A stretch of DNA of 64,000 nucleotides, from assembly GCA_964020085.1 (NCBI GenBank), contig OZ026599.1, forward strand, positions 28,587,033 to 28,651,032. Direction: 5' to 3'. Position 1 is the first letter of the stretch, and each line of letters starts with the position of its first letter. Below, in pieces: positions 7,127-62,313 of the stretch. The position numbers and the translations under genes are program-made. Under the pieces are notes generated by a model. That model was not told where the DNA came from and ran no database searches. It was given only the letters and a program-made list of their open reading frames with translations. The stretch comes from Micromussa lordhowensis (Eukaryota > Cnidaria > Anthozoa > Scleractinia > Lobophylliidae).

Positions 7127-9019
7127 CTATACTGTCTTCTCTTCACTTTCAGTTTTGGCTCGTGGTAGGTTAATATTGCTTGCGTCCATGATAACCAAGT
7201 CCAAGTAGTCCTGATAGTCCATATTAGCTGTACCGTTTAAAGTACTACCGCCGTTCATCCTCGGCTCAGGCAGGTATTGATCCCACTTTGTTGGGTCGTT
7301 TAGGCTTCTTCCACTGAGGGGAAAGACATGTGGGTTCACGATGACAGTTTCACTGTTCCTACTATGGAGGTCCTGTTGCGCTCTGTAAAGAACAAGGTCA
7401 AAAATGAATTGGATATACACTGCACAAGTTAGCAAGAACTGAGAGGCGACGCGGCTTTAGTGATGATAGGGTTCAGTAACAGAGCTGCCTGGAGTTGTTT
7501 TCTGTTATTTACTCTTACAGTGCCTCTCTCTCTCTATGACATCCGGGAGGATAAATTGAAACCGCAAGATCAAAGCTGTTGGGATACTTGAAAACGAAAG
7601 TTTTTGAGAGGGAGAACTGTGATCAGACAACAACAGGAGTGATGGGCTCCTGTCAACAACCAATTCACTTACAAGTTGCTCAGAATTGCTGACTTCAAAA
7701 ACAGGCTTCAAAATGATGTTATAGGAAAGTGAGTTGTCATGTAAATCAGGCGCCAGTTTTTCAAAGAGTGGATAACGCTAACCACATTTATTCACTGGAG
7801 AGTGATTTATGCCGATAGGAGAGCGTCATCCACCCTTATATAGCCCCTGGCTTCGCACAGATGGTCCCTGAGATTTAAATCAGTGCTGCAGGGGTCGTTT
7901 AAGCATGCTATTTCAGAAACTTGCGTCATTAAACTCGAGGAAATACGAAGGAAACAAGTCAGTTCACATTAAACTTGGAATTTAAGGAGAAATACGAGCC
8001 CACGTCCACGGCAAATACGATGGTGTCCGAAGTAGAAGTTTCTTTTTAATAGGTAATTATATATAGTGCGACTTACTCTTTTATCTTTTGTATCTTGATG
8101 GTGACAATAGAAATCATCAGAATCACAGTAAACAGGAACAGCACAGAAAAACAAAGAAATCCAATGGCTATGTAAAGAACTGGAGAGAGAAAAAGAACTT
8201 GTTATTGACAAGATCGACTACAGCAATATGGGAGTTCCCCCCAAACCAATTCATCATCGCAGGTTTCCTCTCTGCAACGTTTTGATTTTGGGAATAGCAC
8301 ATTCTTAACCCGTTTTAGAATAACCCGGTGACCTGAGGCTGTCGGAGAACTAGATGCGAGGAGAAAGGTACATGGAGCATTAGAACAGTTTGGTGCAGGT
8401 GATGTTGGGGCCAGTCACGTGACGGTTCTGAGCTAAACAGAACAAAGAAAGAGCATATTGACAAAATGAATGTTTTGTTTGAAGAGAGCTGCACACTTTT
8501 CTGTGGCCACTTTGTCTCAAATGAGCCTGTCCTCATTGTCAGGTTAATTCTGTTCAGTAATTAGGTACAACAAAAACTTACGAAGCTCGTTATCGTCCAG
8601 GATTTCGTCCACCTTGTTGCAACTTGCCAGCCCTGTAAAAAGAACGCAATTAAGAAAACGACGTTGCCAACGAGATCAAACAATAAGGAAAGAAGACACT
8701 GAATTGTTTCATCGAGGAAATAGCTGACTTGAATTCAAAGTAGCTGTTATTTGCTCAAGATAGGTTGAAAATGAAGAGTGAAATAAATAAATTATATTCA
8801 AGTTAGTGTGGTTTCTTAATCACCGGCAGCCGTGCACAATTACTTTTGTATATCACGATGCTCATTGAATTGAACCTAAATAATTGTCCTAGTAAATCTC
8901 TAAAGCTTTAATTTTTTTCAATCAGCGCTCTCCCTCGTCCCAAATGGTAAATCTTGATGGCTTTTTATGGAAAAGAACGCTCCCAAAATATAGAAAACTA
9001 AATTAAAATAAATTAATTC

Positions 9020-9051
<32 letters not shown>

Positions 9052-9899
9052 GACACTTTCTTACAGTAGAAGTAAGATCGACCCAAGCTCTGAGGATTTA
9101 TCTGAGCTTTCAAATGTGTTTATTCATCCTTCAATAAGAGTTTCGATGTGACTTCAAGCCCGATCCTTTGCCCTCCCCATTGGATCTTTGGAGCCAAGTT
9201 AGAATGTTAATATCATTATTGAAGAACTCTTATCACACATTATTCTATTTCTGAGTATACAGCACTGATTCAAGGGCAGGAGTTACTTTTTTTGCTGAAT
9301 ATCTTCTTCAAAGTCAAATCGAGCAATCTGAAATATTTTCGTCATAGCAACGGACTATATATTTTGGTTCGTTTTGTTGCTAAATGTGGGGCCTATATGC
9401 TAAATAGCTTCTTATGACGCAATGAGCAAATAATTGCACTGTTCTAGAGTGTGAGATCTTTTGAAATCGTTTTCGGTGTTTTACAAATGAATTATCGAGA
9501 ACGTTCTTTTGTTTTTTGACGCAGTTTTAGCAGCTGTAGCTGCAATGGAGCTTTAGTCTAAGCAATAATGAAACCTTTAAAGTTGTTTGGAGACTACGTT
9601 GACGATATTGAGCGTATTTTATAATTATGTTACTTCTATGATAAAGTATTAACATTTACACAAATAGTAACAGAAATAACAATTGACTGCACAGTTTATC
9701 AGGTGTTAAACATTGAAAAGCCAAGCTCCTGGTTTTTTTTTTGGGATCTTGCCTTCTTCATATCTCGGAAAAGACAACTCAGCTTGACTTTCTTAATATC
9801 TTTTAAAAACACTTCAGAGGAATGGATCGGATTCTTACCTGCTGACGCCAATATGAGAAATGTTATGCAAAGGAAGCGATTTTTCCCCGCTTCAGCCAT
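7127..9899 (-). CDS. Gene A: small single-pass membrane protein, 4 exons, 156 aa
   Basis: Reconstructed by hand from exons 9839-9899, 8582-8632, 8077-8179 and 7127-7382, all with GT-AG borders and intron phases 1, 1, 2. Residues 1-20 form a signal peptide (MAEAGKNRFLC then ITFLILASA). Residues 21-37 are a short acidic stub with one Cys. Residues 38-63 are one hydrophobic span, followed by a basic KIQKIK stop-transfer. Residues 72-156 are a polar cytoplasmic tail holding NPHVF, WDQYLPEP and DYQDYLDLV; Tyr131 sits in a YxxL motif. The phase pattern and architecture match genes B-F. Function is unknown; a receptor, adaptor or trafficking role is inference. No clear AATAAA was seen just downstream, so the 3' end is unresolved. 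Confidence 0.75.
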
Positions 9900-15770: not shown

Positions 15771-15774
15771 GGTG

Positions 15775-17059: not shown

Positions 17060-17374
17060 ATGGATTGGAAAACCATTGCTCTTGTAGCTCTGATCATAGG
17101 AACTGAACTCGTTCAGGGACAGGACAACGATGGAATATTTGTAGCCGAATATTCTTTGGTAAGCGTGCTGATAATCGTGTTATTCTGCCTGGGCGGTGTT
17201 TACCTGTGTCTGTATTTTACTTGCTGCCATGAATATCTGTGCACCTCTGATGACAACGCTGGATGTTGTGGAGATCTTACAAATAGGGAATTGAAGTCAC
17301 TTGGCAAGGAAAATGGAAATGTAAAAGTGGACTCTTCACAGATAGTTCAAGTTGGAAGAAGCGCGGACGACTAA
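17060..17374 (+). CDS. Gene G: intronless small single-pass membrane protein, 104 aa
   Basis: One uninterrupted frame encodes a complete protein. Residues 1-20 form a signal peptide (MDWKTIALVALIIGTELVQG). Residues 21-32 are a short stub with acidic residues. Residues 33-56 are a hydrophobic span ending in CC. The polar tail that follows has CTSDDNAGCCGDL and runs to the C-terminus RSADD. The architecture matches genes A-F, but there are no introns, so it may be a retrocopy of a family member. AATAAA lies at 17894-17899, followed closely by a nine-A tract that could be a poly-A tail remnant. The start is the first ATG after an in-frame stop region. Function unknown. Confidence 0.65.
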   Translation: MDWKTIALVALIIGTELVQGQDNDGIFVAEYSLVSVLIIVLFCLGGVYLCLYFTCCHEYLCTSDDNAGCCGDLTNRELKSLGKENGNVKVDSSQIVQVGRSADD

Positions 17375-17899: not shown

Positions 17900-17919
17900 G
17901 CTGTAAAAAAAAACAATTA

Positions 17920-18537: not shown

Positions 18538-18538
18538 A

Positions 18539-18650: not shown

Positions 18651-19370
18651 TTTATAACATAACACTGAGATATTGAAACAAAAGAAGTCCTTTTGTTGAG
18701 CTACATCACAAAAAATGTTCGTGTAGTCTTACATGACAAGAGAAAACAAGCCCGCGAAAATTCACTCATGACAACCGAATGCACACCAGCAACTCGATAA
18801 AGTTTGTTCACGTTTCAAAGGATGGACTTTGTTTCATCTTCAGACAACTGTGAAGACAGTTGCGCATTTCTGGCAAAAGGCCATTACTTTGGAAACAATG
18901 TCTGTCAAAATGTGGACATTAGCACACACGTCAGCAGCGTAAACCCATGGGCAAATAGCAGACGCTGAATTAACCAATCAGAGCGCGCGCTTTGCTTTAG
19001 TTATGTTATAATACAGGTTTGTAAATGATATTTCTGGGTACCAGCGAGCTATCAGTGTTGGGAAAATTAAACTTAACATAAATGTGGGAATATCACTTGC
19101 ATTGCATTAGCATCCAACCTGTTAGTAGAGCAATTGTCAATGCTCATGTTTCCAATTTCCAGACCTAATAATATACATGCAAAAATTTCATCATGCCGAT
19201 TGGCTGAGAGCACGTCCGATTAATCCCAAACAGTGCAGAAAGTTGAAATTGAGTGCAAAACGTTGAAATTAAATTGCGGATTGACAGGAAAGTCGTGAAA
19301 GCCCAACAAAACAAAATGGCGGGCAGCTCATAGGAAAGTGACAATTTTTTAATACAGAGTTTGAAGTGCA

Positions 19371-19688
19371 GTGGGCAAGAACACCTTACAAAGCACAAAT
19401 AACTGGGTGAAAGTCTGGACGTCTTGGGCTTCTCAAAAGGGATATGACGAAAGCATTGAAAAGTACGAACCAGAGGCCCTGAACAAAATCCTCGAGCAGT
19501 TTTACGCAACTGTTCGTGTGAAAGGCGGGGATGATTACGAACCTGATAGCCTTCGTGTGATGGTTACTGTTATCGACCGAGACCTAGCAGATAACGAGTA
19601 CAAACACTCGATCATTCGCGACAGAGAGTTTAAAAGCTCGAAGCAAGTTCTTGAGTTCTGCTCAAGTTCTGCTCAACTGTGCAGCTGA
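19371..19688 (+). pseudogene. Crypton-like tyrosine recombinase fragment, N-terminal region
   Basis: The translated frame contains NWVKVWTSWASQKGYD, YEPEALNKILEQFYATVR, DYEPDSLRVMV and SIIRDREFKSSKQVLE. This series is typical of the N-terminal DNA-binding half of Crypton-derived recombinases and of the related KIAA1958/QRICH/ZMYM-type proteins. An in-frame stop lies just upstream, the frame ends soon after the SSKQVLE motif, and the catalytic C-terminal half (the R-H-R-Y residues) is absent. It is a dead insertion rather than a host gene. The family call rests on recalled motifs, without a search. Confidence 0.65.
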
Positions 19689-20050: not shown

Positions 20051-23000
20051 TTAGTACAATCCCCTACAGACAAACAACACAGTGGGTTAAGCTCAGCTAT
20101 AGCTTACAAATAGAGAAGGGTTAGTAGAGGAAGGCTGGCAAGCAGCTCGAGGGGGGAGGTGTTCCCTACAATGGCCTATACTTGGAGGCCTCTCCCGAGA
20201 GGCTTACTTCTCTCAGGCTTTAGGGGTAGGGATTTCACAAGTTGAGGTATTTGAAAGGGTAGGGAAATCGGAGTATGAAATGAACAAATAATACTTGTGA
20301 TTTTTGGTTAACATTTCTTCTGGTAATGCTTGATGTTTTCCCGTAATATTGTTCGTTAACTTCATTCGAAGGATTTTTGGAAATGATGCAGTGTTGTTAA
20401 GTAGGTATGTGAAAGGGGTACCTTTTTTCAATGAGAGGGATACGAAAGGAGCAAACCATTTCTGTCAAAATGGTTTTCAACAGAGTAAGGGGTTGGACCG
20501 CAGGGTGAAGCCTCCACGTAAAACAACTTTCTAGAGAATCTCCTCCCGGGAGGGAAAACAAGAAAACAAGTAATAACTTGAAACTTACCAAATCTCCTTG
20601 TCGTTGCCATTTGCATCATCAAACATCGCTACTGGGTTGGACTTGCCTGGCACTTTATCGGAAGGGTCGCGAGTTCCATAAACATTGCGTGCACGAGGGT
20701 TTCTCTACAAAGAGAAATATTAGAAAAGTAAGAATTGTACGAGACCCAGGCGTTTGTTCTTTAACATTGGGATTGATCCCGTCCGCATTGCGCCTGAGAA
20801 ATTTGAAAAATTGAGAAATTTGAGTTAGGCCAACTCGGTCACACTAATTCGTCACGAAAACGGAGCTTTTCGAAAATGCTAATCACACCGGAGGAATTTG
20901 AAAACGCCGGCTTTTCGTTTTGTTGTGGACAGAAACCATGACGTCACGATAATCGCGTGATTTCCCTGCTCGAGTCTTCCTCAAAAACAAATCCAGAACA
21001 ACAGGTGATTAATTGTTGTGTTTTCAAATTCCTCCGGCGGAGTATGGGCGGAAAACATTTGATGCGTTTTTCAAATTGTCAAATTTTTCCGGCCTAGTGT
21101 GAACGGGCCTTAATGTGCTTGTATGTCATTTTTCGCTTCAAGTTTTGCCCTTCGCTTTTGCGCATTTGCGCGTTTAGCTTTGCTTATCTACTTTCGTCCT
21201 AAATAAAGATAATTTTTTGAATATTAGAAAAGATAAAGTGATATATGTATCAATATATTTAGAATAAATTGTTCTGCCGATGAGAGTATTTTAATTCGTT
21301 TAGTCGCAGATATTTCAAAAGGTAGTACTTTGTGTACATAAGCCTTAAAAGCTTCCCTAGGTTTCCTTGCCTCATAGATTTTATATTTTTAAACTATTTA
21401 AATTAATGTGTGGCAAAATAATAATAAACTCAACCTTGAAAATGGCGAACTACGTTTTTAAATATTGTCAGTTTTTTTTTGTCAATTAGAAACCTCAGTA
21501 GGTGAAGTCTGCATACGACCCAAGTGGCCCATCAGGCCTTAGCTTATCTCGGTTTCCGTAGCGTGAAGCAACTAGGAATATTTCTACTCCCCCCTAGATG
21601 AGATGCTGGTCCATCGCAGAATTACCCCCAGCATTACGTTCGCTGGTGCCCATCTATAGACCTGGGTGGAGAGAGGCATTGTGAGAGTAAAGTGTCTTGC
21701 CCAAGAACACAACACAATGTCCCCGGGTAGGGCTCGAACCAGGACCGCTCGATCCGGAGACGAGCGCACTAACCACGAGGCCACCTCACCTCCGGAAACT
21801 TCAGCGCCAATGAAATAAAACTGGAAAATGATTGTACGATTTTAATTCGCAATCGAACATGTGTACCTTCAAAGCAGACCGATCTTTCGTTTCTATAAAA
21901 TGAAGAAGTGATGTTGTCTTCTCCTTTCAAGACTGTTTTGAGTTTAAAGTTTTGAGGCTACCAGGTAGAAGTCTTCCACTGTTCCGATCAGTTCACTGGG
22001 ACTGTATAACTAATTTTAGAGCGGTTAAAAAGAAAAAAAGGGTAGGTTTACCTTATTCGACTCCTCTCTCTCTTCTAGTGCTCTCTCGTGTATAGATTGT
22101 CCGGGGTAAGTGGCATACAACGTGTACGATGACCCTCTAGTGTGTAAATATACTATGTGCAGTCTGAAGAAACAAACAAGCAAACAAGCAAACAAACAAA
22201 AACATCTTGGTTAGACTAGATTATCCCTCTGGTAGACGTGTGGGGTATGGGAGAGGAACTTCTTACATGGCGCTAACTGGGATGAACGCCCGGGGGAAAC
22301 AAATGCCGGGTATTTTGTTGGCACTTAGGGTGTCAAATTTCAACCCCCCCCCCCTCCTTTTTCGATCATGATGATTGCATGGTATTTATCTCCGTAAGTG
22401 GCTTAAGTAAAATGATTTTATAATCCACTGCATTCATCAGAAGACAGGGATTCATAGAACTAAACTTGAACAAGTACAAGAGGCTTGATGTCCTTGAAAA
22501 CCTGATGGCTCAAGTGACTACTCAAATGGTTCAAGTGACTTGATTTTATAATCCACCGCATTCAACAGCAGACAGGGATACGTAGAACTAACAAGTAGGC
22601 CTGGCCACAACCTCGTTCCCAGAGCCGTTTCCCTGACTTGGGGCCCCGCCCCCGAGCCAGGGAAACGGCTCGAGAACGAGGTTGGCCCGGCCAGAGGGGT
22701 TAGTAGAACACCAATAAACCCGAACCCCCCTTAGGTACCAATATTCCTCAAACCCTTAATGACCTGTAGACGGCTCTCTCAGTTCAGCTGAGAAAATGAA
22801 ATAACAGCCTCACCTTTTTTGTACCTTGTGAAGCCTTTGTGCCAAACAGACAATGATAATACACTGAATCAAGAAAACCACGCACAGTGCGATGAGTACA
22901 GCGATGACGACTGCAAAGAAAGCAGTTCGTGCTGTTAACATCAATTACATTCAAGTACTGTGGTGTCAAGCTGAAAACAATCGTCAAACTCACTTATTTC

Positions 23001-26704: not shown

Positions 26705-27000
26705 TTTAAGGCGGGGGTAAACATGAAAGCCGTATTTTGGCTGGGTATTATGTTTTTAATGCAAATATCTCGTTTACGTTTCAAGCAATCAAGAATCTCT
26801 CTGCTCACCTCACATATCTATGTTTTGGGTTGTTTTGTAAATTTTTTGGTGATTTTTAGGTATATTTGGAGAGAAATAGTTTTTCTCAAAGGATTAGTAA
26901 AATTGATGGAAATAGGAAATTTGAAGATTTGTTGTTGTTTTAAAATTAGAGTTTGAAATTAAAAATTGGTACATACACTCTGTTGAATTTCGGAACGGCC
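26705..27000. mobile_element. One-ended copy of the TTAA-flanked transposon family
   Basis: It begins TTTAAGGCGGGGGTAAACAT and then follows the element at 36353-36763 closely for about 270 bp (GAAAGCCGTATTTTGGCTGG, GTTTACGTTTCAAGCAATC, GGTGATTTTTAGGTATATTT). The other terminus is missing or decayed. See the two complete copies downstream. Confidence 0.65.
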
Positions 27001-41245: not shown

Positions 41246-41524
41246 GGAGAACATGTTTTCTATTCTTTTAGAAAATACCGCGACGAAGAAAAAGAAAAAC
41301 AACTTGTTTACTTTGATCATCAAAATGTAAATTCTCTTTGTACGCGCCCTCATTACGTCAACGGAAGTTTCAATGAAAATCATGCCCTCTCCTTCTGAAT
41401 TTAAGCTCCAGACTGTTTCCGTATGAAGTATTTTATTTCGCCAAGTCTACTCAATGATGGCTTTTATTTTCTATGTTTTTTTATCCTTTTGAACCTTTAA
41501 AAGTGCACTACAGTATACAATTGA

Positions 41525-45200: not shown

Positions 45201-45609
45201 GTTTCTCAGCCCTCGAGCACCGTACAAACTTAAGAATAAACGTGAGTTAAGGTTTAGCCGTTTTGCAAGTTGTAGGTTGGCAAAGAAATTGAAGGAAACA
45301 TTGTGTAATCGATCACGCAGCGAGCATGACTTATATCACATGACTGAAACAAAAGTTTTTAGTTAAGAGGTTTTCTTAAGGATTTTCATGTGATATTTGT
45401 TTTTATAAAAAGTTGAAAAATAACTCCCGAAAATACAAATTTCAAATAATACATTATTTGAAATTCAATTTAAGTTATTTGCGAACAAATTATATTTGTT
45501 CGCAAATAACTTAAATTGTGTTGTGATTTTCTGACTTACCTCCATGGGCCGTGGAACAGAATACCGTAAAAAACACCAATGTCCAACTTACAATAACACC
45601 GAAGTTCAT
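42270..45609 (-). CDS. Gene D: small single-pass membrane protein, long acidic tail, 4 exons, 216 aa
   Basis: Exons 45540-45609, 43898-43942, 43179-43275 and 42270-42708; phases 1, 1, 2. Residues 1-23 are a signal peptide (MNFGVIVSWTLVFFTVFC then STAHG). The stub, residues 24-39, is DYVSHSDGKEEHHNV. The span is about residues 40-63 (AFTIVIVLGIVFAIQFLVFV and on), followed by SCKGW. The 145-residue tail opens with QFPFLPSYEMAMNEVRESQQ, shared with gene C, and then becomes Ser/Thr/Asn/Asp-rich and acidic (SLDDEDVSEIG, NSDDDVDLSIG) with several serines in acidic context, candidate CK2-type sites. Tyr93 is in YEMA. AATAAA (minus) is at 42155-42160. No enzyme domain. Function unknown. Confidence 0.75.
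44190..44525. other. GC-richer block in gene D intron 1, unidentified
   Basis: This stretch is noticeably richer in G and C than its AT-rich surroundings and has no long frame or clear inverted ends. Motifs include GGCAACTAGCCCCGTCCCAG, CCGGCAGCCAGATCGCGATC and CACAGCTGGGGGATATGTGA. It could be an RNA-derived SINE or a structured non-coding element; I do not recognise it. Confidence 0.4.
45466..45518. repeat. Perfect 25-bp inverted repeat in gene D intron 1
   Basis: CAATTTAAGTTATTTGCGAA, then CAAAT, faces its exact complement across a TAT loop. An adjacent smaller hairpin (ATTTCAAATAAT and ATTATTTGAAAT, about 45449-45475) precedes it. It sits immediately 3' of the exon 1 donor. Confidence 0.8.
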
Positions 45610-48956: not shown

Positions 48957-51900
48957 CTACAACGGAGTTTCGCTGTCTTCTGCAACATCCAGCCCAGATC
49001 GCATGCTGGTACTTTGGTAAGCTGGATTCTGGAAGGAACTCAGGGGCCGGTTTTTGCTTTCTGTCTCGCTAGCGTCCTCGTGACCGTTTTCCTTACCCTG
49101 GGGGGTACCCTGTTTGTCCTTGTTGTTGTTTTTTTGCCCACTTTCCTTGATGTCGTCCAAAGATTGATAATATCCATTGCTTGGCTCAGTAAGCTGTGGA
49201 AGTTAAGTTTAATTAAGTTAAGTTAAATTTGCACGTGAATGAAATCTCATTTCATATGAAAGGGTGGGCACCAAGACTTGCTTTGAGAAAGAGGCTAAAG
49301 GAAATTCGGAACTGGCCTATTTTGTGAACTAGGTTTACGGGGAATGTTTGCTGAGCATAGCTTCTGACCGCATGTTCACATTTTGCTTCACCAGCATACG
49401 AATTGGTATAGGGAATGCATTATGCCAGGCCATTATGCCTGGCTACAAATTAACTCCGCAGAAATGAAAAGCTTGTAAAATTTAGTTTTCGGTCAAATTT
49501 GTAGCTTTCTCGGTGTAATATTGAAGGAAACGTCGACTTCCAAAAACGGCAAGGCAAAAGTGCTGATGAGCCCATATATTCTTTTTCATTTTTAGCTTTA
49601 AAACCTAATTAATATTTTAGCCTCAAAATTCTTAGGATAGAAAATTGGATGCCTTTTCAACATTGAGAGCTAATAATTTTTGTTCCTGGATATGAAGTTA
49701 AGTTGAAATGCTCATGCTGAGGAGACAAATATATTCCTATTTTGCGAAATTATTACGTTAACGTTCTTCCCAAGAATGACGGTAATCTGGGAAACATTGG
49801 TGAACGGTCAACGTTAACCGAGCGTTTTCTTTTGAGTTTCTATAATTCTAGATTAGCCTAACGTGAGGCCGTGGGTGAAGAGAAACACTTGTTTAAGACC
49901 ATGCCTAACGCTCGAACGAGATTTCGGTTTCAGATTACTCACTAACGTTTCAAATTTTGAGCAAACTCATGAATGAAGCAAGGCGGACAAGTTTATGAAT
50001 GAAGTGAGTCCACCGAAACTTTATTTCAGTTTTGCTTAAGGTATTACTGATCGATGGCATTCTTAGAACTTATCGTATTTACTCGAATAAATTTAATTTC
50101 TCGCGTCACAAGTGCGGCGCTTATTCGAGGGCGGCGCTTACTTAAATTGTACCAGACTGTTAATTTTCCTATGGACTGATACTAAACTGATACTGGACTG
50201 ATACTAAACTGATACTGGACTGATACTAAACTGATACGAAACTGATAGTAAATCTAGAGAGAAATTCACGCGGTGAAAAACCCCGAGAGTTTCATGACGA
50301 AAATATTAGCGGTGAGAAAGAACTCCTTTGTCGTTGTGGAACAATTTACAACGTTCAGTCAATTTCGATGTCACTGTCTCCTTCTTTATCAGAATCTACG
50401 AGCTCCAACGTTGGAGGGTAAACGGGGGTGCGGCGCTTATTCGAGGGCGGCGCTTATTAACTTTTTTGTTCAAGATGCGGCGCTTACTCGAGGGCGGCGC
50501 TTTTTCGAGTAAATACGGTATGCAAAAATTGCTTCCGTTGACCTCTGTTAGCTGGTCAAGTTTCTTCAACCAAGTATGGTACAGCATCAAAAGAAATAAA
50601 TAATAAACTGTCCTGAAACATTACTTGTTTTTGGGTTAAAGATGGCAAAGTTCTAACCATTTAAATTTAAGACATTAGTGTGAAAAACAATACCCCGCCC
50701 TGACTTGCCTCGTTTTCATGTTTTTTTCATAACATTTGTCCCTGCAATTTCCAGTCAGATAGGAATATGGCTTTAAAACAAAATTATTCATTCTGTTGAT
50801 AAACACTTCTTCACAATGACAAAAATTAATGGCAGCCATTTTTGCACTGGGTCTATTCCAGAGAATTAATTGCTCGATATATGCGCCACATCTTATAAGC
50901 CAGGTATCTCACCTTGAGCTGTTCGTACTGTGATGGCGGCATGTTCTCTGCATTCTGCTTGCCAGAGTACATGCTCTGGTACCTGACATCCATGTCCTCT
51001 AAAGAATAGTCCGTTCTAATCCTGAAGACAGAAAAACGTTTCTGTCATTCAGGCTCTTGATAAAAAAGGTATATAACACACGTCACTGGTTAAATGATAG
51101 TTTAACTATTGGGTGTACAAGTAAATTCATATCCCCCATATATTGTGATACAGAAAGGAGGAGGGGTTGGGGGTGGATGAAACCCCTCCCCTGGGTTATG
51201 AAATTACGCTAAATGAGTTGGTCACTAAATATAACTTTATCTCATTCATAGAAAGGGGACAGCAAATATTAATTCAGTAAGAGGCAAAGAGCAAAAAAAA
51301 AGGGCAGTGTTTTGCTGTACCCATTCCTGCCAGGAACTGCATTTTCACAACACCAAAATAACGAGTAATGCGGCCAGAAAAGGAATAAAAGTACAATAGT
51401 ACAGTGAATAGTACAGTGAGAAAAATATCAGTTGGTATAAAATTTTCACTGGACTTTTTCTGAGGTGAATAGTCGTGTATAGTTTGGGATGATCAACTTA
51501 GCATTAACTTCCAAATTGTTTGGGTAGTGATTTATGAGAGATTACAATTTATTTGGAAAAATTGAAATGATCTTATGGTGTGTTATCGGAGCTCTCTATT
51601 TATTTCCTTTATTTTTCTTTAGTATCCAGTCGCCTAGCCATTGGGCGATCTTACGTTTAAACAAATAAAATAAAAAACAAATAAATCTAATTAAGTATCG
51701 AAGTGTTTTAGCACTAGTGTACTAATTGGGCACACTGAAACAAGTAAACATGTATTGTTAATTGAACAGGAACTTGTCAAAAAAACCCAACCGGTGGGAG
51801 GCTGACCAGTTGGCTATTTACAAAGCGTGGAGGAGTTGAATCTGGACCACCAAAATAAAAGCCATCCAGGGTGATTCAAACTCGGAACCTCCAGATCACA

Positions 51901-54592
51901 AATGCAGCGCCTTTAACCACTAGACCACGCTGCCTACGCTTCAAGACACGTCAACCTTTTTTCCACATACCAGGATACGCGTGCACGTCTAAACATCACC
52001 AAGGTTACCACGATGCTGAGCAGCAAAAATAAGCTACAGATCACCACAAATGCAATGCTCATAATCAGCAACGTCTCTGTAAACCAAATATAAAAAATAT
52101 GAAGAGATAGTCATTAGAACAAAACACTGCAGTAAAATAAGAGAAGGAAAGAGTTCGCAGTCGTAGTGGAGAGTACGTTTTAGAAATACAAAGCCTCCTT
52201 GTTCTTTTTGTCTAGTTTTCTTTGAGTCCCACGTAATTGAGGTGTTGGGCGAGTTCTCACGAAGCGTTCCTTTTTACCAATCTTTGAATGTTGATTTCCT
52301 CGATTCTTGGTATACCTCTGGCTTTGGTTCCAGTTTTTCAAAACCGACAACTGAGTCCTTAAAAGAACTAGTCGATCAGACATTGAGATTTTGAGGAAAA
52401 ATCTTTCACTAGTTGCACAGTATGGAGAGCTTGGGAAACAGAATAGATGCTGACTTGTCTTGTTATCCACTGGGGACCACTAGAGAGAAACACAATAAAA
52501 GTTCGAATGAAACCTACCATCTTCTTCTTTTCCGATGATGTACGAACCTTCGGTAAGAAAACAATAATTTGTTGTATTAGCCACTTACAGTATTAGAAAT
52601 ACAAGGGGAGGAGCTTTTTGGAATAGAAGACAACATCAAGGACTAACGAAGTGATAACGTGACAGGCTTACAATCAATTAACATGGTCGCAGAAGCTAGA
52701 ATACAGCTAGAATACATAGACTATACGTCAGTTGCTAGTCTTACTTTTATTATCTTACAGAGAACATGAAAGGACACTGAGCTGGAATTTCAAAGCCAGA
52801 AGGAGTTTTAATTTTGGCACGAACAATGGCCAATTCCCTCTTCGAGATGCGCCTGCAAGCTTCGTCATCTTAGACTGGATATTTGTAGTCTGTTCTCAGA
52901 AAAATAATCCGTAGCAAAAACAATAAACGTCTTGAGTAAGGGCAGTGGTAAAGGATGCCCTTACTCAAGGCGATTTTGGAACGACTTGAATCTTTTTGGT
53001 GCCTTTTATCAAATCAACAGGTTCGTCTTTCACTGCAGTATGTTATATTTGGTATCATATCTAAGCAAAGCCCTTCAACTAAAGTACTAAATTACTTTAT
53101 TATTGTTGGAAAGCTGTTTTTGTGGGACTGCAGAAGAAACCAAATAAAACCTAAAATTAAAGGTTATCAAAACAAAATAGATAAAAAAAATATGAAACTG
53201 AACGTAAAATAAAAAAAAGGATTATTTTGAAAATAAAAAAAATGGATATATAGCCCTGGCCAGAAATCAAATTAATATGTTGATAGATTAAATACGTAAG
53301 TATCCTAAGAATTAATTTAGATTGTTCGCTCTCTGTAATCACGAAGTTATTCATTCATTTTTCTTTTGTGTTCTTTTTGTCTTTTTTTCTTGTGTAGTTT
53401 TCTTTTTTGTTACTTGTAGCATAACGTAAGCTACTGATGTAAACTTAAGAGCCGTTTATTAATTTTTAGCCTTCTTTCACAATTGATGTAATCCTGAATG
53501 AAAATAAAAATGTAAAATAAAAAACAACAACAACAAAACAAAAACATTAAACGTCCATGGACATACCAGGATATTTGTTTTGGTGTATACAGCCACCATG
53601 ATTCCCTGCAGGCGAGTCTCTTAGAGGGAATTGGCCTATGGCTGGCCGGTCAGTATAATGTTAGAGTGACAAAATTGGCGAACATAACTGCCTGTTAGAG
53701 TGTCCTCAGTGTGGGAAATCGCTGCCTTGTACGAGACCTCTTTCATACGAAATACGAACTGCTTTTTCCTTCCAGACAGAGTTTTTTCCAATAAGCTAGT
53801 ATACACAACCACTCAGTGATGTTGGATTTGCTTTGCATGTCAGCCGCTGGAAATCGGATGAAATTTGCTCCTGCTGACAGATATAGCTATTTAAAAAGGT
53901 TAGCTTTGGTGTCGATTTGCATGTTTTGAGCTGACAACTCCTTAAAAAGCGACGAAAGTAACTGTTCATCATTTTAAGAGGAAAAGGTTTTATGAAACTG
54001 AAAACTGGAATCTTTATTTCAGATAATCAATATTGACAGTGGTGGTAACTGATCTGGATGGTTTTGAGTCCAACTGCTCGTGATTGTCACGGAACTCGGA
54101 CCGAATCAACTTGCATCACTGAATTGAATAAGAAAAGCAACAATATTTTTGCCTCGTTCCCTAAGTAGTTGCCTTTCTGTTTAAATCGACGCGGATCTGA
54201 TCTGATCCGGTCCGAGTTTCGTCATTGCTTCACGGAGGGGTTTGAAACGTTTCAAGTGTTATCATAAGATTATTACTATATTATACGCTGATAGTAAGAA
54301 AACGTTCGTTATTTCTAAAGATTTAACTCGCCTCTTGACATTGGTTTTGCCTTATTGCAGCGAAAGAATGATAAATTCGCTATTCTGGTCAGTAATATTT
54401 ATTCATAGATGTCTGTCTGAACAAACTTCTGAATTCCTAAGTTGTTTCATGAGTGAAACTTACTTCTAAAGGCTTGTAAAGCCTTCTTTAGAAGAAAGAA
54501 AACAACAAGAACCAAATACCTGCTGATGGACTTGGAGCAAATGATAAAGCTATCGCGACATAAAGCCCAATAGCTTTAAAGTTGACCTTCAT
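48957..54592 (-). CDS. Gene E: short-ectodomain membrane protein with ITAM-like tail, 5 exons, 184 aa
   Basis: Exons 54520-54592, 52518-52547, 51971-52076, 50913-51021 and 48957-49193; phases 1, 1, 2, 0. Residues 1-24 are a signal peptide (MKVNFKAIGLYVAIALSFA). The ectodomain is about 11 residues (GSYIIGKEEDE). The span is residues 36-63 (TLLIMSIAFVVICSLFLLLS and on), then RRAR. The 120-residue tail has YQSM at Tyr84, YEQL at Tyr102, YQSL at Tyr115 and NPAY ending at Tyr165. YEQL-x9-YQSL fits the extended immunoreceptor tyrosine activation pattern and straddles the last intron. The stub and exon lengths match gene F, its divergent neighbour. It could be a kinase-coupled adaptor; the motifs could also be YxxΦ endocytic signals. 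Function not proven. Confidence 0.8.
49225..49325. mobile_element. Half copy of the 13960-14410 inner MITE
   Basis: GAATGAAATCTCATTTCATA, then GAAAGGGTGGGCACCAAGAC and CTTTGAGAAAGAGGCTAAAG, follow the right half of the element near 14090-14175. The left half is missing. It lies in gene E's last intron, close to the acceptor. Confidence 0.65.
50068..50525. mobile_element. DNA transposon remnant with CGTATTTACTCGA ends and GGCGGCGCTTA repeats
   Basis: Left CGTATTTACTCGAATAAA and right TTTTTCGAGTAAATACG are terminal inverted repeats. Next to each end is the repeated GCGGCGCTTATTCGAGGGC. The interior holds five or six copies of ACTGATACTAA/ACTGATACTGG (about 50175-50250). No transposase frame. 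It sits in gene E's last intron. Confidence 0.65.
51780..51950 (-). mobile_element. tRNA-like SINE head in gene E intron 3
   Basis: On the minus strand: GGCAGCGTGGTCTAGTGGTT, then AAAGGCGCTGC, a loop, then GAGTTTGAATC, the A-box and B-box arrangement of a tRNA. The 3' part (TGGATGGCTTTTATTTTGG then CCTCCACGC) shows it is a SINE rather than a tRNA gene. It ends right beside the donor of the membrane exon. Confidence 0.6.
52550..54480. other. Gene E intron 1, no further gene recognised
   Basis: AT-rich sequence with A-rich runs (about 53215-53245 and 53500-53550). No exon in the correct phase was needed or seen. Open frames here lack support. Confidence 0.5.
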
Positions 54593-56968
54593 TCCGCTTG
54601 ATAACATTTTACTGTTAATCAGTTGTCTTCGACAACGGAATGTCTTAACGGAACAAGAAGCCACGAGGAAATAAATCCAGTTATTCAAAGATGGTGTCGT
54701 CGTCGTTTTCCACAAACGTTTCTTAGGGGGAAAGAAAGCTCAAGGAAAGGAGCGGATTGCTCACAAACATTCAAACATTAGACAATATTTCTTTCTATGA
54801 ATGATATTGCGCCGATGAAACGAGGGTCTTGAAAAAGCGCCAATAAATTTTCTGCACAACTGGTTAAAAAGTGCACATCTATTCCCTTGGGAACAAGCTG
54901 CATAATCCGAAGAATCGAGAATATTTTTACGGGTAAAACTGACAGAAAATTAACTTTTGTTTTGTTTTATCTTTGCTCCTTTTGCCGTGCATTTATGCCA
55001 CGATTACAAATGTGACGTTTGTTAAAACTCAATACTGACACAGTTTGCGGTCAAAACCTTTCAGTTTACTTTTCGTAATTCAACTTCCCATGGTTCAATA
55101 CAACAGGAGTGGACAATAAACGAATAGAAAGCTTTCATATTTCCTGTTCACTCGTAGTAGGATGATCTTTTATACAGTTCGGTTAAATTTGAGTTTATGC
55201 ATGACTTAAATTCGCAATATTGGAAACAGCAGATAAACTGATTGCTGCTATTAGCTTTTCTCCTTTCTACACATGCGCTTAAATTATCTCAAAAGTTATT
55301 TCATCCCACTGAAGGTCTAGTGTATGGAGCTTTTCCACTCACATGGCCAGCAGCCATACAGATTTATTGGAATAAAATAGTGTTTGGTATAGAGTTTCGT
55401 TCTTTTGGTACATCAATATGGCTGCTGTGACGTCATGTAAAAACACTCTATATCTATGGAGTTTCTTGAGGGAGGGGAGGGATAGAACATGTCATATTCG
55501 TCAGCCTGCTAGGACAATCTGAAAGCATCCCTTCCCCACTCCTCTAAAAAAAAATCGCAGGTCAAGAATGGAATTACAAATTTACAAATGTTGTAGTCTC
55601 CTTCGCAGCCGTTATTAGGGTCGTCACGCAACGCTTCTCCCCCGCATTGCGTGACGACGCTAACAACGTCTGCGAATTTGAGAAACGAACAACGATATTG
55701 TATTAATAAAATGTTCTTAAACGGTTGAGGTATTCATTCCTACTATATTTCTGTTAACTCGTTGTTGTAACTGGCGAATATCTCATATTTAATCACTAAA
55801 TTTGTGCATGGCTCATCTGTTTTTCTGTCAACTGTTTACTTTTCTCCCATTCAATGTGGTTCGTCATTGTCAGAAATGTGTCTGCTGTGGTCTGAAATAG
55901 CTGGATAATGATTATATCGTAAAACTATTGTTCGTGAAAATTATTATTTTTTACCTGAATCTACATCAAGGCAACGTTGTTTTAAGTATACTTGCTTTTT
56001 GGAGATATCAATTAATACGATTACATGGGAAATATTTAAAGGATATATATAGGATATATGTAGGTAGTGGAACTCTAACGCAGGCCCATTTTTTTGGTTA
56101 GGAGTTTGTATTAGGGTAACTTGCTCAGGTAACTCCAGCAAGATTTGGAAGAGGCTAACCACCTTTAATTTAAGGTTACAAAATCTGTAACATGTATTTG
56201 TAGGAGGAGTTTTGTGTCGACTAAATCCCTGGTTTCCATAGTGACATACCTGTGCCATCGTCCAAGGAACTGTGTCACGATATTACCTGAAGTCATTTTT
56301 TTTGTGATCGGTATAAAATTCTCTCAAACTGTGAGGGAAATCCACAAAACTGATGCTTACAGGACGTGCTAAAGACTGCAAAATTTAATTGATCTTTGTG
56401 ACAGAATTAGGCACCAAAGGAGTTGTAATGAACCTAACATGAACAATAACGTTTAGGACTAACACAAATCAGACGGTTTATGAACGACAAACTTGAAAAC
56501 ACTCGCCGCCGTTTTCAAAATAGCTCTTTTAATCTTAGCCCGGTTGGGGAGCGGACAGTGATAACACAAAAGAAATCTGCAACTGAACAATTCACAGCGA
56601 GCTCGAACCTTCTCTTTACAAACTCCATTTGAATTCCCGGATTATGACTTAATTATCTGCGCTTCACGGACCGCGAAAAATATGTAAAATCACAGTAATT
56701 TCCTTTCTGTGGCCGACTGAATCTGTTGCCTTTTAGGATTTAATTAACCTTCAAGGTACATGTTATTACAAGAGATTTGTTTGTGTTATTTACTATTTAC
56801 CACACGTATTTGAGCTTGTTTTTCTGTTCATTGGAGTTAACTAAATAGCCATTCCAAGCGTAAGTTTCGAAGCAGCCATCTTTCACGCTGATTTTCGCTT
56901 CCATTCGAACAGTTTCGGTTTTCACACTGCGTGTTTTTCATTCTTTCGATACTTCAGAAGAATTAAGG
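54593..56968. promoter_or_regulatory. Divergent intergenic region between genes E and F
   Basis: About 2.4 kb separates the start codons of two head-to-head paralogs, so both promoters must lie here or in unseen 5' exons. No TATA box or shared operator-like repeat was found by eye. The region contains the foldback at 55595-55690. Confidence 0.4.
55595..55690. mobile_element. Foldback with TTCGCAGACGTT-type ends
   Basis: TTCGCAGCCGTTATTAGGGT then CGTCACGCAACGC faces GCATTGCGTGACGACGCTAA then CAACGTCTGCGAA around TTCTCCCCC. The arms are about 33 bp with a few mismatches. Confidence 0.75.
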
Positions 56969-59900
56969 ATGAAGAAATTGTCCTTCGGAATCATTTGGTT
57001 TGGTTTGTTGTGTAGTTTCTGGTTACCCAGCGTTCAAGGAGCGGGTAAGTCTGTAATCAGTTACTTGTAAAAAACTTTGAGAAAACACACCACAAATGTG
57101 TGGTTTACAAGACAAAGACAAAGTCCTTCCCAACCCCAGAGAATATTTACGTGTCAAAATAAGACGCTGTGTTGACGAATGTTTGTCGCATGTTCGATTA
57201 CAATTTCCATTTGTCCGCACGAAGTTCCATTTTTTGTTTAACTAGTAGCATTTTCTTTGCTTCTGCTTCTTAAATAGCAACGATTGTTCTTATTAGCTAG
57301 TATTTTAAGATTTGTTATTTCTTAACTTTTTGACTTGATAATGATGTTGTGAAAACGTCGAAACGTCGTCTAACTTTTGAGCTTTTTTACCCGATTTTAG
57401 AAGTTCCATTTCTTTGGAAAAAAAAATTATTCAAGAAAGAAATTCCTAGCTAACCTGAATTGCCTTCACTCCAACTGGAAAAAATCGAATCATTGTGCCT
57501 TGATCCATAACACGAAATTTCTAGCAGCTTCGCTGCAATATTATTGAAAAATTATTCCTCTGTAGCGAGTGGTTTCTCGATATTTAATGTGCAATTGTGT
57601 TTTAATATACGATGGTGGGATAGCTTAATCAGTAGAATGGTGAACTAAGCAAATTCAAACACTTTTTAATCATGGGAAGTTACGGTTAAAGTGTATTTAA
57701 AATGTTCCAAACAAGAAGTATTGAAAGCTGCAGCTTTCAATATTTCTCGTTTATATTTTGCAGTTTTGTGTGCATGAATCCTTTAGAAACTATCATTATA
57801 CCCTGACAGCAACTTGAGTCATAGCTGGATGCAGAAATATTGAGCCATGTGTTATGTTCATGAAGAGTCAAGAGTACATACAGTTGCTACTTGGTAAAAT
57901 TTAAGGACCATAACAGAGATTAATTTCCAACTATTTATCAAGTCCTTAGCAGCTTTTTTAAGTTCAAAATTTCCCCCTGTGCGTGATTAACGTTTTTTAT
58001 TGATCTCTTTGCAGGAGAGTACATCATCAACGAAGAATATGATGGTATGTTGAAACAACAGAACAATTCCGTTGAAGTCTGAGTTGTCTCCCTACGTTGA
58101 GCTATCCTAAATTGGCCATGAATTTTTGAGCTTGTTTAATTACGCAAAATTAGATCCACGCGGCTTTGGGGCCTACTATGAAACCAGTTGCAAACTTGAG
58201 CGAGATAGATCTCTTCCACTTCATGTAAAAAAAATGAGGAAAAGTCATAACTTACGATCATTCGAAGATCGTTCATTAGCGAAAACTTGAGTTAAAACTT
58301 AAAGTTTTTACATTTATACCTATAATATTTCCTGTGAACGTGCCAAGTATAAAGTATATACTGTGTGAATCAGCCGCCTTTGATCAAACGCCTGAGCTCC
58401 TGTCAGTGAAGTGGACGAGTACACGTGTAATTTAAACACGTTTCTCGCACTGCAGATCATCTTAAAAATTAGGCCCTGGTTGCATGGAGGCAGGGTGCCC
58501 GGGCTACCCAGCTAGGAGAGTTAAAACATAGCCCGCCTCTATAAGCAAATAACCTAGTTAAGCGGGTAACCCAGTTAGCTGGGGTATCCTCCCTCCATAT
58601 AAACAGGCCCTTAGAACGTGTAACTTCAGGTAAAACCAAGCTGAATCTTCGTTTGGTGAAGTGCGTCTGCTAAGAAATGAATCTTTGCCACTTTTACCTG
58701 GGTGCTAATACTAACCATCCATCTTTCAAATATAAAATATGAAATATCAGTTTTGTATAGGACAGACAGATACATAGTTTATCGAAGTTTTAAAAACACA
58801 GCTCTAGAGCTGAGCTAATAAGATAAAACCTTAGAAAGTAATGAATAGGCCTGTCCGGTAAACTGACTGCAAAACCTGCTCCTAAATGTAAATTCACACC
58901 AAACCAACATTTCTAACACCCTTTATAATTATAAACCTCGAGAAAAGACGACAATTCTAACTAGATTGTTTACATATATAATTTTCAGCCATCCTTGTAA
59001 GGTGCGCCATTGCATTCCTCGTGTTGGCAGTAGTCTTCTTGATTCTCTTGATTATAACGTCGGTGTATGTCTACAAAAGAATCGACGAAGACAGGTATGC
59101 CATCCAGAGTAGAGCTGAACGTACATGAATATGGTCTATATATTATATAGAGGATATTACACGGTGGAGAGAAGATATGAATTTTATGTTCGAGTGGCAA
59201 GAGCAATATCTCACGAGTGAGCGCAGCGAACGAGTGAGATGTTGCTCTTGCCACGAGTAACATAAAATTCATATCTTCGAGCTAACGTGTAATGTTCTTT
59301 TTATTATATAAACGTACTGATAACGGCGTTTTTGATGATTTTCCGAAGATTTCCGACCACTTTCCGAAGATTTCCAAAGATTTTCCAAAATTGTCCCGAA
59401 GACCAGACGAACGTTTCCGAACATTTCCCGAGAATTTCCGAGAATGTCCGAAGATTGCCGAAGATTGCCGAAGACTTTCGAGGAAGACCCGAAGATGTTT
59501 CGATGATGCACCAACGAATTTAAGTACAATTTAAGAGACAAACCTGATGCCACTGAAATCATCGATATCTTCACATGTGAGGATATCGTATCGTTTTTAT
59601 GAATTTGTTACTACTCGCTATACCACTGACTTTTATATAATAAATAGTATTATATCATGTTATATTGTTGGTATTAACCAAGCGCAAAGTCCATATGGAT
59701 GTAGAATACTGAATGTTAATTGCATTTTGCATGCTGCAACTTGCACCTTGTTTGTTGCGTGTTTAATATTGCCCTAGTTTTGCATGGATTATGAATGTTG
59801 ATTGTTCAATGTTGCATTTTGCATGCTGCACCTTGCACCTTGTATGTTGCATGTTGCATGTTTAATCTTGATTTGATTTTGCATAGATCACGAATTTTGA

Positions 59901-61251
59901 ATGTTGATTGTTAATTGCATTTTGCAAGTTGAAGGTCGCGGGTATGTTAAATGTGCATGTTATACATTTGAATTGAATAATTCTGAGGTTTTAAACTCGC
60001 ATAACAGCACATTTTTTTTCTGTCTTCTTAAAAATTGATTCATCCAGAAATGTCTCTAAATCTTCATTCGAAACATCGGCGAAACGAGAAAAACGTTGTG
60101 GACGACCTTGTCTTCTTGGTAACCTGGCCTTTGAAAGGCAGCGAGACTGGAAGTGACCTTGCTTTGATACAGACCTCTCTGCTTTTGTCATGTAAAGGCA
60201 CCTAGTTAGCATTAAAACAACTTGATTTACACAACAAACGCCGTGAGGTCTGTATCAAAACAAGGTCACCTCCAGCCTCGCTACCATTCAAAGGCCAGGT
60301 CACTGAGCAGACAACTGTAAAATGGTCTATAGATATTGTGACTGTGTAGCTGCATTGTTTTTCTGTTTGCCTACAATTTTAGGACGTTACAGAAGACATA
60401 CCGAGTGGCATACCGCGAACGCGAATCCGTTGGTGATATAAACAGTCCATTTTATGGACACAGCATTTACTCTCGCCGCACAACGAACTCTATTTATCTA
60501 CCAGGGCTTCATTCGGCGACAGTGATTGGGACAGACGGCAAGACAGTGAAGGTAAAGACTTAGGCCTGGTTCACACTAGCGACACAACGACCGAGGCGAC
60601 ATATATGGGTTAATTGTTGACCAAGTGTGAGGTCAAGATGGCTGGATATTGACCGAGTTCTTTTTTTGCGTGTTTATGGACCGAGACGGAGTCGAGGTCC
60701 ATAAATACGCAAAAAAAAAAAAAAAACCGAGGCCAATATCAAGCCATCTTGATCGAACAAGCTTGGTCAATAAAGGATTTATTATATGGCTTTTGGGGAA
60801 ATTTTTCTTCCGGGACAAGGCGGGTAGTCTCGAGCGGGCAAGATGGCTCCATCTTGCCCGGTCGGGTAGCCAATCACAGCGCAGGATTTGGCCCGCTCAC
60901 GGAGCAAGTCATATAATAAAACGACATAATAGCTTATACGAGGACATCAATGATCTTCGCAATAACATACACAACTTAAACTGAAATTCAAACCTGAAAA
61001 ACATTCAGGCTTTAACGGGATTAGACCCTATGACCTCTGCGATACCGGTGCAGTGCATCATATACGCTGTGACGATAATTGATGCCACATATTTCTTCGC
61101 AGTTCACTTTGACAATTTTATGACGAAATTCACTGTCGACAACAGGACAGAGGCATGAAAACGGGCGTCCATTTAATTCCTTACTATCAAAAAGGTGTTT
61201 GTAGCGCGTAAATTATTTATTCATGAGTCTGTCTGCCTATTGATAATGAAA

Positions 61252-61285
<34 letters not shown>

Positions 61286-61430
61286 GAGAGTTTTCATTGG
61301 CTTAGCCATCATGGTATATGAGCCATTACACCATGATCTACAAAGATGGCGAGCGTATGCGTGATTTTTTGGGCCTTTTTGTTTTTATTGTAGCCTAGTT
61401 TTCTATTTTTGGGAGGCGTTTTTGATAAAA

Positions 61431-61467
<37 letters not shown>

Positions 61468-61468
61468 T

Positions 61469-61542
<74 letters not shown>

Positions 61543-62313
61543 TTAATTAGCCAATGAGCGCGTGAGGATTTCGCAGTTGTTGTAAAATTGATTATGGTCA
61601 GTTGTGTAATTTTTTCACAACCCCATATAAGGTCTTTGCCTTCGAGACACGTTGCCTTTGGTAATCAGAAAGCGAAAAAATATTAATTCAAGACATTCAA
61701 CGATCATTGGAGCGCGGTGTATAAAGTGATCTCAATTAGCTTTGGTCAGTAGTGCTTTACTACTCATAATGTAGCTATCGACTAAAAAATAACAATAACA
61801 AATTCGCCCTTCTTTCCTTGATCACTGGATTGTCTGTACCGTTTATGACTGATTAAAGTAATGGCATTAGTTTGGTTTTAGTACACTCAATTGAAAACAA
61901 TTCTGATAGATGACAAAACTGAACAGAACTAAACCTCTTTCGAAGGGAACGCGGTTGATGCAGATAGTCTGCAGTAATAAAGACCTTTCTCTCAACACCG
62001 CATCGCAACCTTACCTTATCGACCTACTGCAAATCACACATTTCTATTTTACGCACAAACTGAATAAAGGCATGTTTTTTACACTTAACAGAATGCGGCC
62101 TATGAAAATGAAGCGGCAGTTATGGAAGTCGAGGTAAAAAGAGGTTCACCGCCAACAGAAAAGGGTCAGAAGGATACCATGGTTAGCGAGAAAATGGCCA
62201 AATTGGACTCAACTTTCGACAACGACGCCTTCGAGTCCGCGGACAATAGTGCCCGTCCCAGCCGCCCCAGTCGCTATACCAGTACTACCATGACTACTTT
62301 TAAACAGATGTAG
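56969..62313 (+). CDS. Gene F: short-ectodomain membrane protein, paralog of gene E, 5 exons, 200 aa
   Basis: Exons 56969-57044, 58015-58044, 58989-59094, 60383-60551 and 62092-62313; phases 1, 1, 2, 0. Residues 1-25 are a signal peptide (MKKLSFGIIWFGLLCSFWLP and SVQGA). The stub is GEYIINEEYDA, clearly akin to GSYIIGKEEDE of gene E. The span (residues 37-62) begins ILVRCAIAFLVLAVVFLILL, so Arg40 lies at or inside the membrane edge. The tail has KRIDEDR, INSPFYGHSIYSRR, NSIYLPGL, and NAAYENE at Tyr131, a YxN motif typical of Grb2-type SH2 ligands, then a Ser/Arg-rich C-terminus. There is no YxxL pair. AATAAA is at 62408-62413. Function unknown; signalling is inference. Confidence 0.8.
57330..57390 (+). 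ncRNA. Degenerate hammerhead-like motif in gene F intron 1
   Basis: CTTGATAATGATGTTGTGAA, then AACGTCGAAACGTCGTC: the order TGATAATGA, a GATGTT/AACGTC stem, and GAAACGTC recalls Penelope-type hammerheads with a self-complementary ACGT stem III. The CTGANGA core is broken (CTTGATAATGA). Probably a decayed retroelement terminus. Confidence 0.35.
58478..58622. mobile_element. MITE with TTAGGCCCTGGTTGCATGG ends, gene F intron 2
   Basis: TTAGGCCCTGGTTGCATGGA and the complement of CCTCCATATAAACAGGCCCT then TAA form terminal inverted repeats of about 22 bp. GGGCTACCCAGCTA and TAACCCAGTTAGCTGGGGTA lie inside. hAT-like. Confidence 0.65.
59130..59310. mobile_element. Palindromic MITE, gene F intron 3
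   Basis: AGATATGAATTTTATGTTCG, then AGTGGCAAGAGCAATATCTC, faces its complement (GTTGCTCTTGCCACGAG, AACATAAAATTCATATCTTC) around GTGAGCGCAGCGAACGAGTG. Outer ATATTACACGG and CGTGTAAT are the termini. Confidence 0.75.
59320..59510 (+). repeat. Degenerate TTTCCGAAGAT tandem repeat
   Basis: Variants of TTTCCGAAGA (TTTCCGACCA, TTTCCAAAGA, TTGCCGAAGA, TTCCGAGAAT) recur every 10-12 nt for about 190 bp. All three forward frames and the reverse read open, which makes spurious repetitive proteins (FPKISDHFPKI and similar). It abuts the MITE at 59130-59310. Confidence 0.8.
59700..59950 (+). repeat. Two-copy tandem repeat, period about 110 bp
   Basis: GCATTTTGCATGCTGCA, then CTTGCACCTTGT, then TTTTGCATGGATTATGAATG, recurs about 110 nt later with changes and begins a third time. 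It has internal TTGCA/TGCATG microstructure. Confidence 0.7.
60118..60310. mobile_element. Foldback with GACCTGGCCTTTGAA-type ends, gene F intron 3
   Basis: ACCTGGCCTTTGAAAGGCAG, then GACCTTGCTTTGATACAGAC, faces GTCTGTATCAAAACAAGGTC and CATTCAAAGGCCAGGT. The arms are about 60 bp with mismatches around a GTTAGCATTAAAACAACTTG loop. Confidence 0.7.
60600..60920. mobile_element. Composite palindromic MITE, gene F intron 4
   Basis: GGCTGGATATTGACCGAG then TTTTTTTGCGTGTTTATGGA faces TCCATAAATACGCAAAAAAA and CGAGGCCAATATCAAGCCAT. The right part has GCGGGCAAGATGGC facing GCCATCTTGCCCG-like sequence and ends ATATAATAAA. The A run makes the left arm uneven. Confidence 0.65.
61240..61560. mobile_element. 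Palindromic MITE, gene F intron 4
   Basis: CAATTATTCCACTCGCGCTT, then GTTGGATATGAGATGAT, faces ATCATCTCATATCCAACGCG and CATGGAATAATTG around a CCAACTCGGCGCTACGCGCC centre. Preceded by AAAACTGGATCATTGGATAA, shared with 12440-13000. Confidence 0.7.

Follow-up and report, generated by a model that had tools for sequence, protein, structure and literature searches.

Six adjoining coral genes encode a conserved family of short single-pass membrane proteins, some with PY or tyrosine motifs in their tails

Introduction

Commissureless (Comm) of insects and PRRG4 and PRRG2 of vertebrates are short single-pass membrane proteins whose tails carry an LPSY[DE]xA-hydrophobic motif. Their extended PY motifs, found in insects and vertebrates, are given as GLPSYDEAL in Comm and GLPSYEQAV in PRRG4, and Comm and two PRRGs are described in the same source as having no signal peptide (PMC5578492). 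Comm has two PY motifs, and these are reported to be required for ubiquitination of Robo1 (PMC12101832). CYYR1, which belongs with the Shisa-like STMC6 proteins and their C*C*CC*CC ectodomain pattern (PMC5578492), has three and is reported to bind the ligase WWP1 via PPxY (PMC11399591). Here we describe six adjoining genes, A–F, at positions 7127–62313 of a 64,000-nucleotide stretch of the stony coral Micromussa lordhowensis (contig OZ026599.1), which we call the window. A–F are a real, conserved, unnamed coral family of short single-pass proteins.

Several other groups of membrane proteins share parts of this layout. FcR-gamma, CD3-zeta and DAP12 carry an acidic residue inside the membrane helix, and the strict immunoreceptor tyrosine-based activation motif (ITAM) reads YxxL/I-x6-8-YxxL/I. 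FXYD, KCNE and Shisa proteins serve as auxiliary subunits and modulate a channel, pump or receptor. Among tyrosine-based tail motifs, YxN favours the SH2 domain of Grb2 and NxxY favours PTB domains, while YxxL and NPxY motifs can act in endocytosis. The vertebrate transmembrane adaptor proteins (TRAPs; LAT, NTAL, LIME, SIT and PAG) are defined by a short ectodomain, one helix and a multi-tyrosine tail (PMC2803307). ITAMs and immunoreceptor tyrosine-based inhibition motifs (ITIMs) have been reported in a cnidarian, in the alr allorecognition genes of Hydractinia (PMC12065747), and vertebrate-like Syk homologs have been described in invertebrates (PMC5978004).

Results

Gene models and exon plan

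All six genes were rebuilt as complete coding models, with a GT donor at every intron. Five of them (A, B, D, E and F) follow one plan, in which a signal-peptide exon, a stub exon, a membrane exon and one or more tail exons are joined in phases 1-1-2; their stub exons measure 30–60 nt, giving very short ectodomains. The phases of gene C are 0-1-2. Its product starts with MDDE, downstream of an in-frame stop, and has no signal peptide, and its orthologs P0013 and P0014 likewise begin MDDE. An earlier sequence-only reading of this DNA had proposed seven genes with one plan while naming only A–F; the plan stands for five, C departs from it, and the likely seventh gene, G, is intronless. The membrane-exon sizes given in that reading, 97 nt in B, C and D and 106 nt in E and F, were confirmed, and the exon of A measures 103 nt.

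Genes A–E lie on the minus strand and F on the plus strand. Gene A (7127–9899; 156 residues) consists of a signal exon at 9839–9899, a stub at 8582–8632, a membrane exon at 8077–8179 and a tail at 7127–7382, and its orthologs are P0035–P0037 and P0048. Gene B (20051–25185; 153 residues; orthologs P0063–P0067) has a signal exon at 25122–25185, a stub with a CC...CC pattern at 22994–23053, a membrane exon at 22814–22910 and three tail exons at 22052–22163, 20589–20704 and 20051–20063, the last of which, at 13 nt, encodes GLY-stop in agreement with the C-termini of most B orthologs. Gene C (27358–31384; 110 residues) runs from its MDDE exon at 31373–31384, which ends in phase 0, through a stub at 29409–29451 and a membrane exon at 28727–28823 to a tail at 27358–27538. 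Gene D (42270–45609; 216 residues; orthologs P0002, P0003, P0006 and others) has its signal exon at 45540–45609, stub at 43898–43942, membrane exon at 43179–43275 and tail at 42270–42708. Repeats of the kind IDNGVILEI and LDDGVVLEI occur in the D tail and in its orthologs.

Genes E and F have two tail exons each and, like B, are in phase 0 at the end of the first of them. Gene E (48957–54592; 184 residues; orthologs P0039–P0042, P0046 and P0050) has a signal exon at 54520–54592, a stub at 52518–52547, a membrane exon at 51971–52076 and tail exons at 50913–51021 and 48957–49193. Gene F (56969–62313; 200 residues; orthologs P0038, P0043–P0045, P0047 and P0049) has the corresponding exons at 56969–57044, 58015–58044 and 58989–59094, followed by tail exons at 60383–60551 and 62092–62313.

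A scan of the window for membrane exons entered in phase 1 and left in phase 2 returned 20 rows, the six family exons among them, and a strict whole-window scan for signal exons returned four rows, exactly those of A, B, D and F. The signal exon of E was found in a relaxed scan alongside many other rows, and relaxed splice scans offered several alternative joins. No plausible large ectodomain exon, immunoglobulin-like or other, was found between signal and membrane exons in the introns scanned, in keeping with the short ectodomains that the sequence-only reading had proposed. At gene B, the long open exons extend the stub upstream, and the orthologs lack these extensions; the one at gene E (55955–56269) lies upstream of its signal exon; A, C, D and F yielded none. 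Stubs of 10–20 residues are too short to hold a folded ligand-binding domain.

Conservation in robust corals and clustering

Protein searches returned 69 hits, in sets of 34 (C/D-type), 28 and 7, with the window's own D tail (P0004) among them. Homologs of each of A–F lie on contigs of 903–1742 nt and align along the gene. The genomic genes are longer: 2.8 kb against 1429 nt for A (P0035), 5.1 kb against 903 nt for B (P0065), 4.0 kb against 1309 nt for C (P0013), 3.3 kb against 1742 nt for D (P0002), 5.6 kb against 1078 nt for E (P0039) and 5.3 kb against 986 nt for F (P0038). Because they are transcript-sized and shorter than the genes, these contigs probably represent spliced transcripts.

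A species name is attached to 11 of the hits, and every one of these is from Orbicella faveolata, Oculina patagonica or Desmophyllum pertusum, robust corals of the suborder Vacatina. No relative was seen outside robust corals, in searches that require shared five-residue words and among hits that mostly lack a species name. The sequence-only suggestion of an uncharacterised family is supported as regards conservation in corals, and the anthozoan range that it gave is shown for robust corals (Vacatina) only. The genes are also clustered elsewhere. In Oculina, F, E and D bear the consecutive gene numbers 27818–27820 and B is 27828, all with the same contig size; A, C and two copies of E share a contig size in Orbicella, as do D and F in Desmophyllum. 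The equal sizes suggest one contig per species for the family genes.

Searching the coral's own genome (580.8 Mb) with B, C, D and E gave confident matches at the window locus only, where C and D also match each other, and weak matches elsewhere on contig C8 (E-value 0.014, with gene E as query) and, with gene B, on contigs C1 (0.089) and C11 (0.67). Occurrence at a single locus is established for these four of the six genes. No further family exons were found in the 30 kb on either side of the locus (60 kb examined). Identity was higher in the membrane exon than in the pooled tail for 25 of 27 window–ortholog pairs, which suggests specific contacts made by the helix.

Common descent within the cluster

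Pairwise shuffling of membrane exons identifies two clear sets of paralogs: C and D, which are 46% identical (z 7.5), and E and F (z 4.0), whose stubs read SYIIGKEED and EYIINEEYD. The pairs B–C, A–F and C–E were borderline (p about 0.01–0.03), and A–B, A–D, A–E, B–F, D–E and D–F were not distinguishable from chance. Profiles were then compared against shuffles in which columns of the signal, stub, membrane and tail segments were never mixed (n=40). The E/F profile beat 40 of 40 shuffles when paired with A, with B and with C/D, and so did the B profile when paired with C/D; these are four of the six profile pairs. Since pairwise membrane-exon shuffling secures only C–D and E–F, the argument for broad common descent is drawn from the profile comparison together with the exon plan and the adjacency of the genes. 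We read A–F as one family linked through E/F.

Motifs in the tails

The tail of C contains LPSYDMAV and that of D contains LPSYEMAM, both conforming to LPSY[DE]xA-hydrophobic. LPSY is present in 21 of the 34 C/D-type hits (20 of 33 when P0004 is set aside), and the remaining 13 are fragments, nine of which begin past the motif and four of which end ahead of it. Each of the 21 contains LPSY[DE]xA-hydrophobic once or more; P0001 has two LPSY copies, with V in place of A in the first. P0001 (Desmophyllum OS493_022429) is a single predicted protein with two membrane-plus-LPSY-tail units, either a tandem copy that has become fused or the product of a fused gene model. In the genome of M. lordhowensis, WW exons are closely followed by HECT exons on the same strand at three places: contig C12 at 6.79–6.84 Mb (four WW), contig C3 at 14.35–14.37 Mb (two WW) and contig C7 at 32.88–32.90 Mb (one WW).

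Gene E carries an ITAM-like pair, YEQL-x9-YQSL, and an NPxY motif (NPAY). YEQL is retained in all seven sequences, and the last position of the second motif is L or I in five of the seven, with V in P0039 and P in P0041. This pair was seen in E only. Gene F has NAAYEN, and NxAYEN is found in the window copy and in all six full-length-type orthologs checked; gene A has paired tyrosines. When the tails of the six genes were pooled, 20 of 26 tyrosines but 196 of 474 other residues were identical in all aligned orthologs (p = 3.6e-4). The tails do diverge, as the sequence-only reading had stressed, but their tyrosines do so less than their other residues. Conservation of the LPSY block and of several tail tyrosines equals that of the helix.

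Comparison with described families

Pfam searches with the window proteins and with three of the four family alignments (gene A as window protein only) gave nothing above cut-off, Rfam gave no match, and comparison with solved structures, for which D and the alignments of E/F and of B were the queries, gave weak matches only (E-value 0.041 or worse). A literature search whose coverage left out most subscription journals found no paper with any of six coral gene identifiers, and none that brings together lineage-specific coral transmembrane proteins, tandem duplication and ITAMs.

The lack of a signal peptide in gene C is shared with Comm and two PRRGs, as these are described in PMC5578492. The differences from Comm and the PRRGs are that C and D have a single PY motif, no Gla domain and a stub of about 15–19 residues, and that A, B, E and F are without the motif. 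No Pfam match at E<=1 indicated a Gla domain or overall Comm/PRRG homology in C or D. C and D are not classed as members of the Commissureless/PRRG group, since the tests for a second PY motif and for overall homology were negative. C and D probably work like Commissureless and PRRG4, which are the nearest functional likeness for them and were not named in the sequence-only reading.

Gene B resembles CYYR1 and WBP1 in having a signal peptide, a cysteine-bearing stub and one helix, but B and its orthologs have CC...CC rather than C*C*CC*CC and the B-type proteins P0063–P0069 have no PPxY. The B-type Pfam scores fall below the curated cut-offs, at 19.3 against 31 bits for CYYR1 and 17.3 against 28.1 bits for WBP-1. 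A, E and F have the short ectodomain, single helix and multi-tyrosine tail of TRAPs, but these three have a signal peptide and none of A–F has a juxtamembrane CxxC. A match to SIT was found for two of 11 E/F-type proteins, weakly (best E-value 0.14), and shows no homology. With FcR-gamma, CD3-zeta and DAP12, to whose short ectodomains the sequence-only reading had likened those of the cluster, the family has the tiny ectodomain in common and gene E the ITAM-like pair. Closeness to these chains is not supported: no acidic residue lies in the helices of the six window proteins, the pair in E has a spacing of 9, and no homology was found. In the F helix, the window copy has Arg near the outer end where four of five aligned orthologs have Asp.

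Candidate gene G and other features of the window

Candidate gene G (17060–17374, plus strand) is a single uninterrupted exon encoding 104 residues with a signal peptide and a membrane helix. Its codon usage is coding-like (0.169 in frame, negative off frame), and among ATG-initiated frames of at least 80 codons its score is the highest after the D tail. No relative of G is demonstrated, no protein homolog search having been made with it; it has no introns, and its alignment with B was poor and was not used. G is not shown to be a seventh member with the A–F plan. A 92-codon open frame on the minus strand (41105–41383) has family-like codon usage (0.113).

The interval between C and D contains a tandem array of about six 219-nt units (39003–40320) and, at 32351–38205, dispersed direct repeats, several pairs of which stand about 1.4 kb or 3.1 kb apart with identities of up to 96%. 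A 168-nt sequence occurs twice, at 26706–26873 and 36352–36519, with 98% identity between the copies, one of them directly downstream of the C tail. An open frame at 19365–19688 has a QRICH1 domain (32 bits against a Pfam cut-off of 30.8) and may be what is left of a mobile element, or an exon that belongs to another gene.

Discussion

We put at about even the chance that A–F constitute a stony-coral family of tandemly arranged, short single-pass membrane adaptors, with the helix given over to a partner and the tails to effectors. Its members probably connect membrane partners with the machinery of signalling and protein disposal. The signal peptide, or in C the helix itself, would insert the protein so that a stub of 10–20 residues stands outside and the tail lies in the cytosol, and the conserved membrane helix would touch partner membrane proteins. 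In C and D, LPSY[DE]xA-hydrophobic would engage WW domains of NEDD4-type HECT ubiquitin ligases and the proteins would steer the partner to endosomes or lysosomes, on the model of Commissureless with Robo; by this analogy, it is fairly probable that C and D are PY adaptors for NEDD4-type ligases. A, E and F would offer conserved tyrosines to SH2 or PTB proteins through the ITAM-like pair and NPxY of E, the NxAYEN of F and the paired tyrosines of A. Judged from the motifs, such tyrosine-docking tails are plausible, at a little under even confidence. B may be a CC...CC member that weakly resembles CYYR1 and WBP1.

Several results weigh against this interpretation. As to common descent, which the sequence-only reading had proposed for the whole cluster and which the four profile pairs and the clustering in other corals support, A and C/D show no profile similarity (16 of 40 shuffles score as high) and A and B are marginal (2 of 40). 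As to the PY motif, neither window C and D nor the 34 C/D-type hits contain a second one ([LP]PxY beyond LPSY), and [LP]PxY is absent from all 35 hits of the A, B, E and F types (P0035–P0069). Tyrosine conservation is significant gene by gene only in E (p 0.016) and F (p 0.004), not in A, B, C or D; window F has lost the distal NxAY tyrosine (NDAF); and YxxL pairs, being short, may occur by chance. Finally, the stub in E and F is often conserved as much as the membrane exon or more.

Much of the same evidence can be read in other ways. The higher identity of the membrane exon than of the pooled tail in 25 of 27 pairs would also be expected if the proteins were auxiliary subunits like FXYD, KCNE or Shisa, using the helix to modulate a channel, pump or receptor and the tail mainly for trafficking, and YxxL and NPxY may likewise serve endocytosis. 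This is unlikely, given that the LPSY block and several tail tyrosines are conserved like the helix and that no known auxiliary family scores above the Pfam cut-offs. Signalling chains like FcR-gamma, CD3-zeta and DAP12, which pair with ligand-binding receptors via membrane charges and signal via ITAMs, would account for ectodomains of 10–20 residues, for YEQL-x9-YQSL in E and for the Asp near the outer helix end in four of five aligned F orthologs, and they would have a cnidarian parallel in the ITAM/ITIM motifs reported for Hydractinia alr genes (PMC12065747). Yet the window helices lack an acidic residue, F having Arg where orthologs have Asp; the spacing of 9 in E exceeds the 6–8 of a strict ITAM and the second motif is broken in P0041; and C and D have no such tyrosine pair, so that we regard this explanation as distinctly unlikely.

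Gene B, and by extension the family, could instead be a degenerate branch of the STMC6 (Shisa/CYYR1/WBP1) superfamily. Three of six B-type proteins match CYYR1 (best E-value 0.0016, along almost the full length) and three of six match WBP-1 (best 0.0079), but all of these matches are below the curated cut-offs, the unrelated DUF4446 matches six of six, B has CC...CC only and no PPxY, and the stubs of C, D, E and F are without cysteine; we consider such an origin improbable. The short exons and the alternatives from relaxed splice scans might also suggest stray exons of larger receptors or open frames that arose by chance. That would be extremely hard to square with full-length homologs of each of A–F and clustering in other corals, and on account of the full-length homologs we rejected both truncated receptors and artefacts.

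The adaptor interpretation can be carried further, tentatively and with considerable doubt. An ancestral coral cassette of signal peptide, stub and helix may have been duplicated in tandem, its tails becoming specialised for NEDD4-type ligases (C, D), Syk-like kinases (E) and Grb2- or PTB-type readers (F, A). The result would be a lineage-specific set of adaptors for common membrane partners, with degradation and activation outputs at one locus.

The locus offers a coral gene family that is conserved but has no name, together with full gene models, orthologs that are named and short motifs open to testing. Should C and D act as Commissureless does, the docking logic of LPSY[DE]xA-hydrophobic would reach cnidarians, through descent or convergence. 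If the tail of E is activating, reef corals would have an adaptor built of leader, stub and helix, and ITAM/ITIM motifs are already on record for allorecognition genes in the same phylum (PMC12065747).

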